Shown: piece by piece, positions 9,845 to 30,284 of the stretch | How the letters are laid out: each line of letters opens with the position of its first letter | Position numbering within the stretch: position 1 is the first letter of the stretch | NCBI RefSeq assembly: GCF_003473485.1 | Contig: NC_053048.1 | Span: 41,412,755 to 41,476,754 of the forward strand | DNA length: 64,000 bases | From: Medicago truncatula | Lineage: Eukaryota; Streptophyta; Magnoliopsida; Fabales; Fabaceae | Direction of reading: 5' to 3' | Notes under the pieces: model-generated | What the model saw: the letters and a program-made list of their open reading frames with translations, nothing else | What the model was told of the DNA's origin: nothing | Database searches by the model: none | Position numbers and translations under genes: made by a program

Positions 9845-10711
9845 TTAAAGGGTGAGTTCCAAGTTCAGTTCCTCCTCATTGGGATTTGCCTCATTTATGT
9901 CATCTTCATCTTCATCTTCAATAGGATCATGAGAAGGAATTTGATCAATGAAATTTCTTTCTACACCCTCAGAAGATGGAGGAGGGGTTTGATTAGCTTG
10001 AGCTAAAAGTGCCAAACCCACAGCGTTTGATCTTTGTGGAGTTGGTAATGCAGCAGCATTTTGACCTCCACCCCATAAATTATTCATCCCAAATTGTGGT
10101 GTTGCAAGGGATGAATTTGACAATGGCATCACAAATCGTGATGCAGGAGGTGTATTTGGCATATACATCCCTCCATAGCCACCAGAAGATGAACCACCAC
10201 CAAGCCAAGAAGGCAATGAATTATTCACATGGCCACCAATTGAGTTGGATAGGTTAGCACCACGGAAGTATGAATACCCTTGGTAGTGTGGAGAGCTTGA
10301 AAATTGATAAGGGTATGGAAGGATATTAGATTGATACCTTAGGGCTGAATCGATTACATCCTCTCTCCTTTGTTCTTCCATTTTTTTGAAGACACGCTCA
10401 CGCTTATGAGCGTTTTGGTGTCCTCCAAGCGCTTGAGAAGTGGGGAATTTCTTGTCACAATAAGTACAAGAGAATTCCTTCACTTGCGGCGCAGGTGGAG
10501 GTTCAACATTAGCATTTTGAGATGAACCTGAATGCTCACCCTTCTCCAAGGGTTTGGAAGTGGGATTTGTGCCACCGCCAAGCCTCAAGGTCAAGAAATC
10601 ACCACCATCCGATCCAGAGGTTGGTGGTGTTGTCTTTGGCTCCTTCTCCGATTTCGACTCTTGCACAGGGTCCTCCATCATTTTGCGCTTGAGGTTTTTG
10701 TCCTCAGACAT
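9845..10711 (-). CDS. Single C2H2 zinc finger transcriptional repressor with two EAR motifs
   Basis: A 288-residue plant-type zinc finger protein, intronless as usual for the family. One finger (about residues 80-102: [10 protein letters not shown]...[10 protein letters not shown]) has Cys82, Cys85, His98, His102 and the plant-specific QALGGH helix. LTLRL (about 40-44) and the C-terminal LNLELTL (282-288) are LxLxL EAR motifs, which in this family recruit TOPLESS-type corepressors. The middle is rich in Gly, Ser, Pro and Asn, and an acidic stretch (DEDEDD) precedes the C-terminal EAR. A basic KRK near residue 9 could help nuclear entry. On the minus strand a TATA-like ATAAATACC lies about 90-100 bases upstream. 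Relatives in the ZFP/GIS/KNUCKLES group control organ and trichome development; the exact orthologue cannot be named from sequence alone. Confidence 0.93.
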
Positions 10712-10802
10712 TTTTTAAAGCAAAAAAAAAAAAAGAAAGAAGAGATTTCAAAGTTTTTAGTGAGAAATAAACTTGTGTGATTTCATGATCGCTAGAGAGG
10801 GG

Positions 10803-18652: not shown

Positions 18653-18700
18653 TTAAAAATTCACTATATACTATTTTAAACCAATATTGACTAAATGATA

Positions 18701-18994
18701 CTCCCTCCGTCCCTAATTATAAGACCATTTTGAGAATTTTTTTGTCCCTTTTTATAAGACCCCTTTGTTATTTCCAACTACATTAATTATTTCTTTACAT
18801 ACATGCCCCTATTTATTATACATCTTTTTCTTCAATCAACAATAAATAACATGTTGAAAACATAAACTAACATTCTTTCTTAAAGGATAAAATTGTAAAA
18901 ACAATAGTGATTACAAACAACTTTAATACAAATATCCACTATCTTAATTCCCGTGATTTTGGCAAAAGGATCTTATATATAGGGACGGAGGGAG
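18701..18994. mobile_element. Stowaway MITE (294 bp)
   Basis: Terminal repeats CTCCCTCCGTCCC are inverted at the two ends, with TA dinucleotides on both sides (18699-18700 and 18995-18996). These are the hallmarks of Stowaway MITEs moved by mariner-type transposases. A full mariner element starts 251 bases downstream but has a different inner terminal sequence. Confidence 0.92.
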
Positions 18995-19245
18995 TAGTTC
19001 TATAAATTTGTTTTTTTTTTTTTGGTCAAGCTATAAATTTGTTTATACTCATCTACAATATAAACAAATGAGACTTCTTATATTCTCAAGTACACGTGAC
19101 ATGACTCTAAGTTTTTTACAATTAATGATACTAATTCAAATATTTGAAAGTCTACAAGGAAATGAGCTTTCAAAAATATGAAAATCAATTTTCAATGCAT
19201 TCATATCTGCTGCGCAACATTATAGTATATTCTATAAAAAATCTA

Positions 19246-19280
19246 CTCCCTCCGTATCGAAATATAAGCAAAATTCAACT
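19246..19280 (+). repeat. Left terminal inverted repeat of the mariner element
   Basis: It begins CTCCCTCCGTATCG and continues AAATATAAGCAAAATTCA, pairing with the right end at about 22915-22949. Confidence 0.9.
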
Positions 19281-19512
19281 ATCTTACTTGTGACAAAATA
19301 TAAGCAAAATTGACTTTTTTCATCATATTTAAGGCTAATATACCAAAAATGCCCTTAGTTTAATACTCCAATTTCCATCACAGTTTTCCACACGAATGCA
19401 ATTCTCCAAACCAGGTTTTAATGAATGTATTGAAAAACTGAAACGGCTCTCTATACTCCTCTCCCTCTATAGTAACTCCACGAAGCCCAAGCCAATGTTT
19501 TCTTCCACTTAT

Positions 19513-19520
19513 TATAAAAA
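19513..19520 (+). promoter_or_regulatory. TATA box of the accessory mariner gene
   Basis: TATAAAAAG lies about 60 bases before the ATG at 19576, so the small gene has its own promoter inside the element. Confidence 0.6.
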
Positions 19521-19575
19521 GGCTGTTCAGAGAGAAACTTAGTGTTCCTTCTATTCTTCTGCATAATTCAAGAAA

Positions 19576-20025
19576 ATGGCTTTCAAGAAAATGGCTATAA
19601 AAGCACCATCTTTTAGTTTGGGAATTGACTCAGATTCTGAGGATCTGCTGAATCGAATTGTTGAAGACTCGCTAGAGAAAGATGGGGAGGTTGAACAGAT
19701 TCAAAATGTTGAGGGTGAAGTGAATTCTCACCATCATGTTGAAGGTGGAGAAAGAAGCTTCAAACACAACTTTGATCTTAACGAAATTCCTAATGAAAGT
19801 GAAGGTGCTGCTGAAGCTGATGATGTTAATGAAGTTCTTAATCCAGTTGAAGGTGCTGCTGAAGCTGAACTTGATTTAGATCTAAACAAAATGCCCAACG
19901 TGAATGTTGAAAATGAGATTGAAGAGGAGTTGGCAAACCATGAAAAGGATGAGGTTCAGAAAAATGAAAAGTTAAAGAAATGGGTTCATGATATGCTGAA
20001 GATTTATATAGCTGGGTTTCCATGA
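19576..20025 (+). CDS. Accessory protein of the mariner element: acidic, DLNxxP-containing, unknown function
   Basis: A 149-residue open frame with a good ATG (an in-frame alternative is at 19591), preceded by a TATA box and convergent with the transposase. I do not recognise a catalytic or DNA-binding domain. The N-terminus is basic (MAFKKMAIKAPSFSLGID) and the rest strongly acidic. There are two DLNxxP sequences, DLNEIP (about 67-72) and DLNKMP (about 102-107), of the kind known as EAR motifs that bind TOPLESS-family corepressors. An EGAAEA word occurs twice, so part of the protein arose by internal duplication. The C-terminus (KLKKWVHDMLKIYIAGFP) could be a short amphipathic helix. The transposase N-terminus has the same DLN theme. 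It could be a transposition cofactor or regulator, or captured host sequence; all three are inference. Confidence 0.6.
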   Translation: MAFKKMAIKAPSFSLGIDSDSEDLLNRIVEDSLEKDGEVEQIQNVEGEVNSHHHVEGGERSFKHNFDLNEIPNESEGAAEADDVNEVLNPVEGAAEAELDLDLNKMPNVNVENEIEEELANHEKDEVQKNEKLKKWVHDMLKIYIAGFP

Positions 20026-20413
20026 TTTTTTTCGACAATGATAAGAACAAGTGAAAAACTACAACTTTTGCTGCTGCTTTTATTTTTTGTCTTTATCCCC
20101 TAATGTACTAGCTTATGTTAACAATTTGGAGAAGCAACGTGAAGTACTCTTTTTTGTCTTTATCCATGTACTAGCTTATGCCAATCGGTTACTTTAATAT
20201 TTCCTTTTTTTTTTTTGCCTTTCATAAAATAATATAAAGAAGTTTCTATCACCAAAAACAAAATTGCTTTCTATTGAATAAAATACTTGACGTACACAAT
20301 GCATAAAACACAAAAGATAGCTACGAGATATGAGAATAAAATACGCCACGTACAATGCATAAAACACAAAAATGGTTAAGTGACATGAATAATTCTTGAA
20401 CTCCACAAGTCAT
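20026..20413. other. Convergent 3' spacer inside the mariner element
   Basis: This lies between the two stop codons. It contains two direct repeats: TTTTTTGTCTTTATCC with TGTACTAGCTTATG, and AATGCATAAAACACAAAA. It must hold the polyadenylation signals of both genes; several AATAAA-like words are present. Confidence 0.55.
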
Positions 20414-22501
20414 TCACTCCATACCCTGCAAGAGTTCACTAATTTCAGCAACCAATTCTTGATCGCAATTTAGTGTAGTGGGTAGTGTAGCTTGTCTAAG
20501 CATGACATCTTTCTTCATATGAGGAGTCTTGTATTTATTGGACCCTTTAACCTTCATGATTTCAATCATGCACGACTGAAGTGTAAGAAATATTTTGTTT
20601 GAATCCACACTAGAAAATTCATCAAACGAAGTTTGCACTGCTTGAATAAGTTCATCAACCGTCCGTGTCACTTTCTTTTGTTGTAATGCTTGAATGGCTG
20701 CAAAAAATCCCAAATCCAATACATTTAAATCAGGAGAATTAGGTGGCTGATTAATCAAACGGATGTCAAATCCACCTTCAAAAGCCGCTGCTTGAAATTC
20801 TTCGTCATCAACAGAAACATGACACGGTGCATTATCTTGTTGAATGTAAATTGTTTCCGATGCAAGTTCTGGTGGCACTTTTTCTTTGACGGCCGGTAAA
20901 ATCTTGTCTCTTAAGTACATTCGACTAACTTCTCTAGTAATAGAACCGATTGGTTTTGTTTCGAGTGTCCCTGCGGGTCTATTGACACTGGACCTTCTTG
21001 CAGGCACTTTTTCAACTAGAGGCCACACTCCAATTTTTCCCGACCATGTTTCATGACCTGCATAATCAAACCTAGGTCTAGCCACTGCAACTATAAACAT
21101 GACCTTCATTAGATAATTTTTGTTTTTGCACGGACGGTATGGATCATCCTCATCTGCAAGAAGGTAATAATTCTGAGATTTTTTGGTCACATAGAACCAC
21201 TTTTCATCTATGTGAATAACATTGTGCATTGACTTAAACTTTGGCTCAAATGGAATGCTACTTTCCTCCAACATGGACAAACAAAATCTAAGACGAGCTT
21301 TCATATTATCATCTGTCATGTGTGGTTTTAGTGCACTTGAATGCCGACGCAAAACACCTTTTTTTATTAACCTCATTAGTTGTCCAGTGGTACACTCTAA
21401 TGCTTCTGCTAGAGATCGAAGACTACTACGTTTGTGTAGCGGTATTTCACGTATTTTTTCGATATCTATGACTTTTTTTTTCCGACCACATTTTGTTTTC
21501 TTGTGACAAACATCACCTGTTTCAATTTTTTGCCTCCAAATCGCATAAATAACATCTACGGATACTTGATAGGAAGAAGACAACCGTTTAACAACCCCCT
21601 TATTAATTTTTCTACCAGAGCTTGAATTGATCAAAACCTCACAAATATTTTGCCGCTGATAGTTGTCTAAAAAAGTTCGCTTTCTTTTAGATTGTGGCTC
21701 ACTATGAATGTTGTTTCCTGTTTCATTAAATATAAAATCAAAATAGTTATAAAAAATATAAAAATAGAAATTGGTTTCAGTACATAAAATTGCATGCCAT
21801 TGACATTTGACAGGAGTAGTAGCATGCCATAAATTTCATGGTCCATTGATAAAAAAGAATAACAAGGTGGAGTACATGTAACCATGTTGCAACAAAACGT
21901 GTACTCCTACGTCATATACATGCAGTTCATATAAAACGTGGAGAATATTGAGTGCAAAAAGTGGCACAATATAATAAAGACAAGTGCAAAACTAATATAA
22001 ATAAACATTCACAAAATGAAAAAAAAAACTCCATGTACCTATATCTTCTTCGATGTTATTGTAAAAAAGTTCAGCTACATCTTCTTCATCTTCGGAGACG
22101 CTATCTTCAGACTCAAATCCAATATCTTCTTCTTCATCTGATAGATAGTCGAATAAATCATTGCTTGAATAAGTAGCATTCAAATTAGAAGTGTTCAAAA
22201 CACTGCAGGGGATGTTCAAACTAATCTCTAAAGGTACATTTGAGAGGTGGTTAGAGGTGCTCAAATCATTCAAAGGAATGTTTAGATCAATATTAAGAGG
22301 CACGTTTGAGAGGTGGTTAGAAGTGTTCAAGTCATTCAAAGAGATGTTCAAATCAATATTGAGAGGCTCATTTGAGAGGTGGTTAGATGTGTTCAAGTCA
22401 TTCAAAGGGATATTCAAATCAATATTGAGAGGCTCATTTGAGAGGTGGTTAAATGTGTTCAAATCATTCAAAGGGGTGTTTAAATCAATATCAAGAGTCA
22501 T
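20414..22501 (-). CDS. Plant mariner-like (DD39D) transposase, two exons, apparently intact
   Basis: Exons are 22039-22501 and 20414-21717; the 321-bp intron has GT-AG ends (donor GGTACAT, acceptor AAACAG). The phases join exactly (GA|G..GNNIHSEP) to give 588 residues. Residues 1 to about 106 are five imperfect 22-residue repeats of the type LNIDLNIPLNDL..SNHLSN; an acidic stretch (about 112-150) and a KRKR nuclear-signal-like patch (165-168) follow. The next section is the helix-turn-helix DNA-binding region (SSYQVSVDVIYAIWRQK). Catalytic residues are Asp325 in HIDEKWFYV, Asp449 in IQQDNAPCH and Asp489 in VLDLGFF, with exactly 39 residues between the second and third, the plant mariner signature. 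The enzyme would bind the terminal repeats and cut and paste the element at TA. The start is supported by a TATA box about 55 bases upstream. No stop or frameshift was found. Confidence 0.93.
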
Positions 22502-22550
22502 CTTGAATTAACAATGTGAAGCTCCAATTTTCTTGCATTTTTTACCTTCA

Positions 22551-22558
22551 ATTTATAG
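22551..22558 (-). promoter_or_regulatory. TATA box of the transposase gene
   Basis: The minus strand reads CTATAAATTG here, about 55 bases upstream of the transposase ATG, consistent with a short leader. Confidence 0.6.
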
Positions 22559-22914
22559 AAATCAAAGTGACACTCCAGTTTCTAAATTTAAATTTCAGAT
22601 GAATTAGTGTGCCATTTTGTTACCGCCAATTTTTTTATAAAATGAAAGAAAAGCTTGAAAAATTTGCGCCAATTTTTTATAGGAGTAAAGCAGTTTTGGA
22701 AGTTGAAGAGGCAAATAAATTTTGGCTTGAATTTTGGTGTATTATTGAGCAACGTGTTTCCTCTCTTCAATGAAAGAACATGAAAAATAACCAAGCACCT
22801 TAATTAATGTGGTGAGAACATCAACGGTTACAGAAAATCAGAATTCATAAGGGCAAATAAGGTATTTTGACTTAAATTAAATGACAAAGACATCATTTCT
22901 TAAAATATGTGATT

Positions 22915-22949
22915 TGGTCAATTTTGCTTATAAAAAATTACGGAGGGAG
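22915..22949 (-). repeat. Right terminal inverted repeat of the mariner element
   Basis: Reverse-complemented it reads CTCCCTCCGTAATTTTTTAT followed by AAGCAAAATTGA. It matches the left end except for a 7-base window, and TA follows at 22950-22951. Confidence 0.9.
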
Positions 22950-22951
22950 TA

Positions 22952-28522: not shown

Positions 28523-29250
28523 TAACTAATACAATACATTTTTTCATTAAAAATATTCATATTCCACATTAACGTGTAAATCAATGTCGGTTAGTAACAA
28601 AAAAAGAAAATCAATGTCGGTTAATAATTACCTCACTTTAATCCACTCTCATTAATTACATTCATTGTTTAAATTTTTAAGTTGACAATATTTCTTTATC
28701 TATGTGCTATTTACATAGCCAATCACTCTAAGGTCCTGGATAAAGATGAGCTGTTCAACATATTATGGGGATGCTCTAAAAAAAATAAAAAATTATGGGG
28801 ATTAAAATCACCATTATTTTCAATTTTACCGAATACATGAATGATTAAATAACAATGATTTGACCAATTAGATAATAGTAAACTTTAATTAAAGACAGAT
28901 TATTTGGAGAATGTGAGTTTAAACCTCGACATGAACAATAATTGATTAACTTTTACTTATATTTAGTCTTTCCGCCAAACTCGTCATTATTTTCTGAAAA
29001 CAAAAATAAAATTTGGATGGGCTTAGGCCCTCTTGTTATCCAAAAATAAATAAATAATAAAATTTGGTTACAATAATCCCCAAAGGATAGAGAGATTTTA
29101 TTCCACACCTAAAAACCAATATATTATTACATATGTTTGATCGAAGACAATGACCTCATCTTATATGATACTATTTACATATTATTATTTATTATGATTT
29201 ATGGTACTTAATACTACATTAAGATATTATTTATAGATTAAATATATATA

Positions 29251-29285: not shown

Positions 29286-30065
29286 TCAAAGTTTAAGGGT
29301 TAAATCAACTTTGGATGCTTCCTCCTCTTGAGTCTCTTTCTCTTCCTGATCAACTTTATCACTAACAACACCTCCCTCTGAAACTGAATCAATTTCAATC
29401 TCAGACATATTAACTTTTTGATTCATTATGCTTTGATTAGCTTCATTTGCTTCATCTATCTCTGGAATATGCTGCAATGCACCATACAAATTCCCTGCAT
29501 AAAAGTTTGATGACCCTGCATGCTGAATCATATTGTTAAATCCATAATATTGATATCCACACCCCATATGGAATGGAGAGATGGTGTTTAGACTTATCCC
29601 TTGATCACCATTTGAGTAATTTATCCAAGCATTGTTAAAAGTTTGGATCCTTTTTTTGAGACTTCTCTCTAATTTGTGAGAATTTTGATGACCACCTAAT
29701 GCACGTGGACTAGTGAACTTTCTGCCACAAAATTTGCACGAGTAAGCCTTTTGAATTCCTTTCCTGTGATCAACAATGAATCCAAAACGAAGAAATGGAG
29801 AAATTTCTTTGGAAGAATCAGTTGATTCTTCTTCAACAACATCTTTTTGGGGAGTCCTCGAATTCTGAGTTTCAACATAGGATTCTTCCAACACGATTGC
29901 CTTTCTCTTGTTCTCATTATTATGATTTTCCATCATCTTCAAATTGGCTATTGATTCTTCATTCACCTTCTCCTTCCCCTTGTTGCACATGGCATCAGAG
30001 AGAAAGTGAAATGATGGGTTGAGAGATGATTTAAAATGTGAAAATTCTTGTGAATTTAAAGACAT
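29286..30065 (-). CDS. Single C2H2 zinc finger repressor with C-terminal EAR motif
   Basis: From the ATG at 30065 the product is 259 residues; an internal ATG at 29990 (MCNKGKEKVNEE) would give 234. One plant-type finger, YSCKFCGRKF...RALGGHQNSH, has Cys110, Cys113, His126 and His130 and an ALGGH helix where the family usually has QALGGH. The C-terminus ends VDLTLKL, a DLxLxL/EAR repressor motif preceded by an acidic Glu-rich region. The gene has no intron. On the minus strand TTTATATT (about 30104-30111) is a plausible TATA box and CACGTG at 30096-30101 is a G-box, both close to the upstream ATG; the short distance leaves the start uncertain. It shares architecture, but little sequence outside the finger, with the gene at 9845-10711. 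It is probably a nuclear transcriptional repressor of the ZFP/KNUCKLES type; orthology is not resolved. Confidence 0.88.
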   Translation of the reverse strand: MSLNSQEFSHFKSSLNPSFHFLSDAMCNKGKEKVNEESIANLKMMENHNNENKRKAIVLEESYVETQNSRTPQKDVVEEESTDSSKEISPFLRFGFIVDHRKGIQKAYSCKFCGRKFTSPRALGGHQNSHKLERSLKKRIQTFNNAWINYSNGDQGISLNTISPFHMGCGYQYYGFNNMIQHAGSSNFYAGNLYGALQHIPEIDEANEANQSIMNQKVNMSEIEIDSVSEGGVVSDKVDQEEKETQEEEASKVDLTLKL

Positions 30066-30284
30066 GCACTTAGGGCAAATATTATGTGAAGTTTCCACGT
30101 GTAAAATATAAAGCAATCTTGAGGATGGATATCACTTTTAATTAGATTAGATAGATTTCAAATACTACTCTTTCTCTTTATTATTTTTTTAATGACAATT
30201 AATAAAATAAGATCTTGTCAATTTTTTTTAATAAATAAAAATATACTTTTAATAAAAATAAGTAGATTTTTAGTCATTTTGAAC

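Follow-up and report, generated by a model that had tools for sequence, protein, structure and literature searches.

Plant mariners and the Stowaway miniature inverted-repeat transposable elements (MITEs) mobilised by them rank among the most abundant plant DNA transposons. Elements of the PlantMar type (Soymar1, Osmar, Ppmar, Dcmar1) use a TA target, have ends of the CTCCCTCCGT type, encode a transposase with DD39D catalytic spacing and measure 2-6 kb (PMC7325037, section 7). They are described with one transposase gene where PMC4423477 and PMC6696609 treat them, and the PlantMar section of PMC7325037 names no second gene. Here we analyze a mariner in a 64,000-nucleotide stretch of the Medicago truncatula genome (NC_053048.1, positions 41,412,755 to 41,476,754; this whole stretch is the window). 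The element occupies window positions 19246-22949, fits the PlantMar size range with its 3,704 bp, and shares the target, ends and transposase of that type, but is set apart from the descriptions by a conserved second gene, hereafter the small gene. Among the matches listed for the open-access literature, no title or abstract opening named a second gene in plant mariners, and the gene is likely, though not certainly, a novelty.

Second genes are known from other transposons. PIF/Harbinger and CACTA elements also encode a second protein beside the transposase (PMC4423477), but they belong to another superfamily with another target site, and Pfam found no likeness between second proteins. The ciliate Tec and TBE elements are members of the Tc1/mariner superfamily with extra open reading frames (ORFs) (PMC7325037), but their transposases are DD34E and their hosts different. 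In plants, VANDAL elements encode the accessory protein VANC beside the transposase (PMC13317346); these are Mutator-type, and VANC recognises DNA motifs, whereas no such domain was seen in the small protein. Pack-Mariners carry extra coding DNA (PMC8903248), but they are non-autonomous and contain host gene pieces, whereas the extra gene here is old and stands beside an intact transposase. If a second gene is conserved, assays and annotations of plant mariners would have covered part of the element's coding content; such a gene would also offer a direct genetic handle on their regulation.

A mariner with two convergent genes

The element is flanked by TA at 19244-19245 and 22950-22951, and its termini read CTCCCTCCGT...ACGGAGGGAG. 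Likeness between the two ends extends over about 112 bp, and a softer alignment of them was equalled in 0 of 300 random resamplings. The transposase gene lies on the minus strand and the small gene on the plus strand, each reading inward from one end. The element shows marks of PlantMar, with TA target site duplications (in all nine copies described below), short CTCCCTC-type terminal inverted repeats and a DD39D transposase; CTCCCTC is given as the consensus end of rice Mariner in Table 1 of PMC4423477. The second conserved gene departs from the usual single-gene account of plant mariners, which is a description rather than a strict criterion. The element is a recently mobile plant mariner of the PlantMar type with two convergent genes.

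The transposase (588 aa) is encoded by two stop-free exons separated by a GT-AG intron of 321 bp. Its catalytic residues, D325, D449 and D489, have DD39D spacing, the third having been counted off the sequence within SPDLNVLD. Pfam placed DUF7769 slightly over its cut-off and HTH_Tnp_Tc3_2 and DDE_3 under theirs; NCBIfam returned an IS630-type transposase, below cut-off. The predicted structure of exon 2 had a mean predicted local distance difference test score of 35, too poor for a fold search. A sequence-only reading of this stretch had described matching terminal repeats bordered by TA, an intact spliced DD39D transposase of 588 aa and a separate inward-pointing gene of 149 codons with its own TATA box, and each of these features stands as it was described.

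The small ORF is a coding sequence, because its three-base periodicity exceeded that of all 1,272 window tiles, as well as all 2,000 resamplings. With codon frequencies trained on six coding stretches within the window, it scored 51 bits in frame; the other two plus frames, which hold 10 and 30 stops, scored -20.0 and -2.5. This places it fourth among 179 ORFs and first among those outside the training set; the score is mostly amino-acid content, its synonymous-only portion amounting to 3.7 bits. The start codon stands in the context AAAATGGCT. Boxes similar to the upstream TATAAAA also precede the small gene at three related loci (L016, L018 and L034), and no such box was found upstream at L023, L032 or L036.

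Conservation of the small gene across mariner families

We searched the plant's own genome (429.9 Mb, 42 contigs) and found nine full-length or near-full-length copies of the element, family A, each flanked by TA at either end, with 8-19 substitutions between any two. Differences this few support recent movement of the element, which may still be able to move at present. The small ORF is present in 9/9 copies and intact in eight, L009 having a one-base insertion; the same copy has lost the final 6 bp of its right end. The transposase frame is intact in six, with frameshifts in L004, L006 and L008, and the family A transposases have accumulated 10 synonymous and 18 nonsynonymous changes. The sequence flanking L004 on its left is similar to the inner portion of the end found in this family (ATAAGCAAAATTGACTTTTTTCATA), as though the copy had inserted into a relative. 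L010 (oriented 1025-2537), a derivative shortened by deletion to 1.5 kb, no longer has the catalytic part of the transposase but retains a long small-gene frame continuing into a remnant of transposase exon 1.

A tblastn search with the small protein found the gene adjoining transposases about 63% identical to that of the window. In families B and C, whose transposases are 62-65% identical to it, the small gene lies at the same position and points toward the transposase. Family B (L016-L021, with a remnant in L022) has the ends TA-ACACCCTCCGG; family C comprises L023 and L024, with remnants in L026 and L039. The ORF runs uninterrupted from ATG to stop in L016, L017, L018, L019, L020, L023 and L024, and is broken close to its start in L021. 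The gene was further found beside transposases about 50-58% identical, at L030, L032, L034 and L036 and in family D (L027, L028, L029 and L031), where the C-terminal half alone was recognised and no ATG was seen.

Profile searches among 2,009 ORFs linked these groups. A profile built from the small proteins of families A, B and C found L034 at an expectation value (E) of 0.007 and family D at E 0.03-0.04, and one built from L034, L032 and L036 found D at 1e-5, B at 5e-4, the family A derivative L010 at 9e-4 and C at merely 0.065. As a control, an eight-protein profile run against 1,300 ORFs from the rest of the window gave a best E of 2.6. At L036, a cysteine-rich ORF of 98 codons (2631-2924) enters the mariner left end at 2906, as if a host gene had been hit by the insertion.

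A transposase census of the genome returned 87 matches. Three of the census loci (L041-L043), whose catalytic parts are full-length and free of stops (50-53% identity), were fetched after the small gene had been predicted there; the flank on the expected side alone was fetched, and the transposase was taken from the census. The gene was present at all three, with E 7e-10 at L042, 8e-8 at L043, where it is split over two frames, and 2e-4 at L041, with a large composition correction. Altogether, the small gene or a recognisable part of it was found at 16/16 loci with a full-length stop-free transposase catalytic part (L001-L005, L007, L009, L016, L018, L019, L020, L027, L028, L041, L042 and L043). 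It is incomplete at five of them, with a frameshift in L009, the C-terminal half in L027 and L028, no visible ATG in L042 and the split in L043. The gene or a remnant accompanies the transposase at 32 of the 40 transposase-bearing loci read (L001-L009, L012, L013 and L015-L043); at least 10 further places with census transposases lie outside this tally. Also outside it are derivatives with no match to exon 2, among which L010, L044 and L045 carry the small gene or part of it and L011 and L014 do not.

The small gene is under purifying selection between two subfamilies of family B, represented by L016 and L018. For this pair, synonymous divergence (dS) was 0.217 and nonsynonymous divergence (dN) 0.059, a dN/dS of 0.27; rounded, 20 differences fall on 109 synonymous sites and 26 on 449 nonsynonymous sites (Fisher p 1.1e-4). 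The transposases of the same pair have dS 0.211 and dN 0.038, and the equal silent divergence indicates that both genes travelled together. Between families A and B, silent sites are near saturation and the small-gene frame is nevertheless kept; between-family dN/dS ratios range from 0.24 to 0.64. In a comparison of eight families, small-protein and transposase distances correlated with a Spearman coefficient of 0.46, a value reached in 115 of 5,000 permutations.

Several observations weigh against the joint reading, set out below, of a two-gene lineage with an accessory regulator. Eight of the 40 loci lack it (L012, L015, L025, L033, L035, L037, L038 and L040), and at every one of these the transposase is broken, truncated or a fragment. 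Family A offers too few small-gene changes, 1 synonymous and 5 nonsynonymous, to reveal constraint. The silent distances between families A and B are unequal, at 1.46-2.19 for the small gene and about 0.97-1.00 for the transposase, both near saturation. High dN/dS values were obtained for A-L010 (0.71), L018-L021 (1.26) and L019-L021 (1.34), pairs that each include a deleted or broken member. L041 has no DLN motif, the DLN of L034 lacks its P, and L036 is without the C-terminal motif. The most distant profile matches have modest scores, and ORFs of transposase exon 1 score nearly as high (L021 exon 1 at E 0.0016 against 5e-4 for family B), so part of the deep signal comes from the DLN motif and the acidic composition. 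The deepest links thus rest partly on a shared motif and an acidic make-up, to which position and orientation add evidence.

Conservation together with purifying selection on a second gene, one mark of a two-gene autonomous transposon, was found in the L016-L018 pair, and we are highly confident that this is a two-gene mariner lineage. The second gene is a long-standing component of these elements, inherited together with the transposase, and neither a chance ORF nor a recent capture. The sequence-only reading had expected both genes to recur between shared ends in several copies, the small gene to be under purifying selection, and the small ORF to be neither absent from related copies nor riddled with stops. 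The genome bears these expectations out, and the pairing reaches beyond the single lineage then proposed, to transposases about 50% identical.

Origin and possible function of the small protein

Where the small gene came from can be narrowed. A chance ORF is credited with a vanishingly small probability: 30 of 20,000 resamplings of 19246-20413 produced one of at least this length, but the periodicity tops every tile, homologues occur in many families, and the frame is retained under purifying selection despite near-saturated silent sites; we rejected this origin. A captured piece of a host gene, carried as a passenger with no role for the element as in the Pack-Mariners of rice and maize (PMC8903248), would agree with a codon score closer to that of host genes than the transposase's is. 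We nevertheless regard it as very improbable, since the gene spans families at 50-65% transposase identity under constraint. Moreover, of 27 genome matches to the small protein at E up to 1, 24 lie within mariner copies or deletion derivatives, and two (C2:3061304 and C8:28497190) adjoin transposase pieces of the census. The remaining match is C3:58824415, outside the part read. L044 and L045, with weak matches and no listed transposase, are family C derivatives. This search used one query and scored the best candidates, so that a remote host relative could escape it; with no relative outside mariners among the 24 of 27 matches read, recent host capture was rejected. An ancient capture later made useful is compatible with our preferred explanation. 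Descent from a duplicated transposase exon 1 was also rejected for the window copy, where DNA similarity did not rise above resamplings and protein alignment was not significant. In relatives, residues 65-141 of the small protein weakly match transposase exon 1 (E 0.006-0.007), which may reflect a DLN domain common to both or a remote kinship.

The small protein has no recognisable catalytic or DNA-binding domain in Pfam and NCBIfam scans. Its best Pfam match had E 0.19, far under cut-off, NCBIfam gave no match and PHROGs nothing useful, a single match was found among PDB sequences (E 0.47), and viral and prokaryote sequence collections contained no match. Alignments of the relatives revealed common parts, namely an N-terminal IVEDSLE module, one or two copies of DLNxxP, a run of acidic residues and, in most proteins, a C-terminal end similar to LKIYIxxFY. 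IVEDSLE occurs in four copies in L032 and L036 and was not seen in family D. In family B, an acidic ELKDEELENGLEI-type repeat near the C-terminus varies in number (L016, L017 and L020 versus L018 and L019), and the protein length accordingly ranges over 186-242 aa.

DLNxxP is an EAR-type (ERF-associated amphiphilic repression) motif that docks to corepressors of the TOPLESS family. The window protein has two exact DLNxxP motifs and one LDLDL, and thus both forms of the motif, DLNxxP and LxLxL; of 100,000 shuffles of it, 287 had one DLNxxP and none had two. DLNxxP is present in seven of the eight aligned small proteins, L034 being the exception. DLN motifs also occur in transposase N-termini: the window copy has seven, family B has DLNVQP and DLNVAP, and others are found in family D and the L034 group.

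The small protein may regulate or assist transposition, as the sequence-only reading proposed. We think that it is probably an accessory regulator of some kind, because DLN motifs in it and in the transposase N-termini suggest a host partner shared by both, and we lean toward the joint reading of a two-gene lineage with such a regulator. In this model, the small protein would regulate the transposase through a host partner that both element proteins bind by their DLN motifs. Transposase bound at the ends would recruit a corepressor and shut both genes, and the small protein, without a visible DNA-binding domain, would compete for the corepressor and so tune the feedback. That the partner docked by the small protein is TOPLESS is a tentative proposal from motif content, held at somewhat less than even odds. 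We hold it doubtful that the second gene would prove a general, ancestral and overlooked part of plant mariners whose two proteins engage a host corepressor through DLN motifs in a feedback on their own expression. The DLN motifs common to both proteins make the regulatory model testable.

Two other roles were weighed against accessory regulation. The small protein might be directly required for excision or insertion in plant cells, acting at the ends with the transposase as do PIF/Harbinger ORF1 and CACTA TNPA. Its retention at every locus with a full-length stop-free catalytic part, the purifying selection that it shares with the transposase and the need of PIF/Harbinger for two element-encoded proteins (PMC2836001) would all suit such a factor. 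We consider it unlikely, as the mobilisation of non-autonomous elements by bamboo Ppmar transposases in yeast is described with no second element protein being named (PMC6696609), and the Pfam and NCBIfam scans found no DNA-binding domain. An anti-silencing role, in which the small protein would release the family from DNA methylation as VANC does for VANDAL, is quite improbable. Such systems share the arrangement of a conserved second protein encoded beside the transposase (PMC13317346), and the recent burst of nine copies would be in keeping with this role, but a DNA-binding domain is again missing and no family likeness appeared in Pfam, NCBIfam, PHROGs or PDB sequences. DLNxxP, moreover, points to repression rather than relief, unless the motifs are decoys.

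Feature coordinates and neighbouring sequence

Table 1. Features of the mariner element in the window (HTH, helix-turn-helix; pI, isoelectric point).
Feature	Position	Strand	Basis or remark
TA, left target site	19244..19245	.	read directly; TA both sides in 9/9 copies
Left terminal inverted repeat	19246..19275	+	repeat search
Inner repeat motif AAATATAAGCAAAATTGAC, second copy behind left end	19296..19314	+	direct repeat D11 and inverted repeat I4
TATAAAA upstream of small gene	19513..19519	+	read directly
Small gene, 149 aa, acidic (pI 4.39)	19576..20025	+	ORF, codon and periodicity analyses; intact in 8/9 copies
Conserved N-terminal module of small protein, PSFSLGIDSDSEDLLNRIVEDSLE	19606..19677	+	alignments
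DLNEIP (DLNxxP motif)	19774..19791	+	sequence, alignments
DLNKMP (DLNxxP motif), overlaps LDLDL	19879..19896	+	sequence, alignments
C-terminal motif LKIYIAGFP	19996..20022	+	alignments
Transposase exon 2, HTH and DD39D catalytic part	20414..21717	-	sequence, Pfam, NCBIfam
Transposase intron, GT-AG, 321 bp	21718..22038	-	8 bp present in 8/9 copies missing from window copy
Transposase exon 1, 66-bp repeat array and seven DLN motifs	22039..22501	-	sequence, repeat search
Right terminal inverted repeat	22920..22949	-	repeat search
TA, right target site	22950..22951	.	read directly; TA both sides in 9/9 copies

Elsewhere in the window, a Stowaway-MITE-like element of 298 bp with CTCCCTCCGT-type ends and TA lies at 18699-18996, about 250 bp to the left of the mariner. 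A single CTCCCTCCGT-type end was found at 28524 on the minus strand, with no partner at one mismatch. Two long ORFs on the minus strand (9845-10714 and 29286-30131), which we take to resemble C2H2 zinc-finger proteins, have EAR-like tails (LNLELTL and VDLTLKL) and are unrelated to the element.

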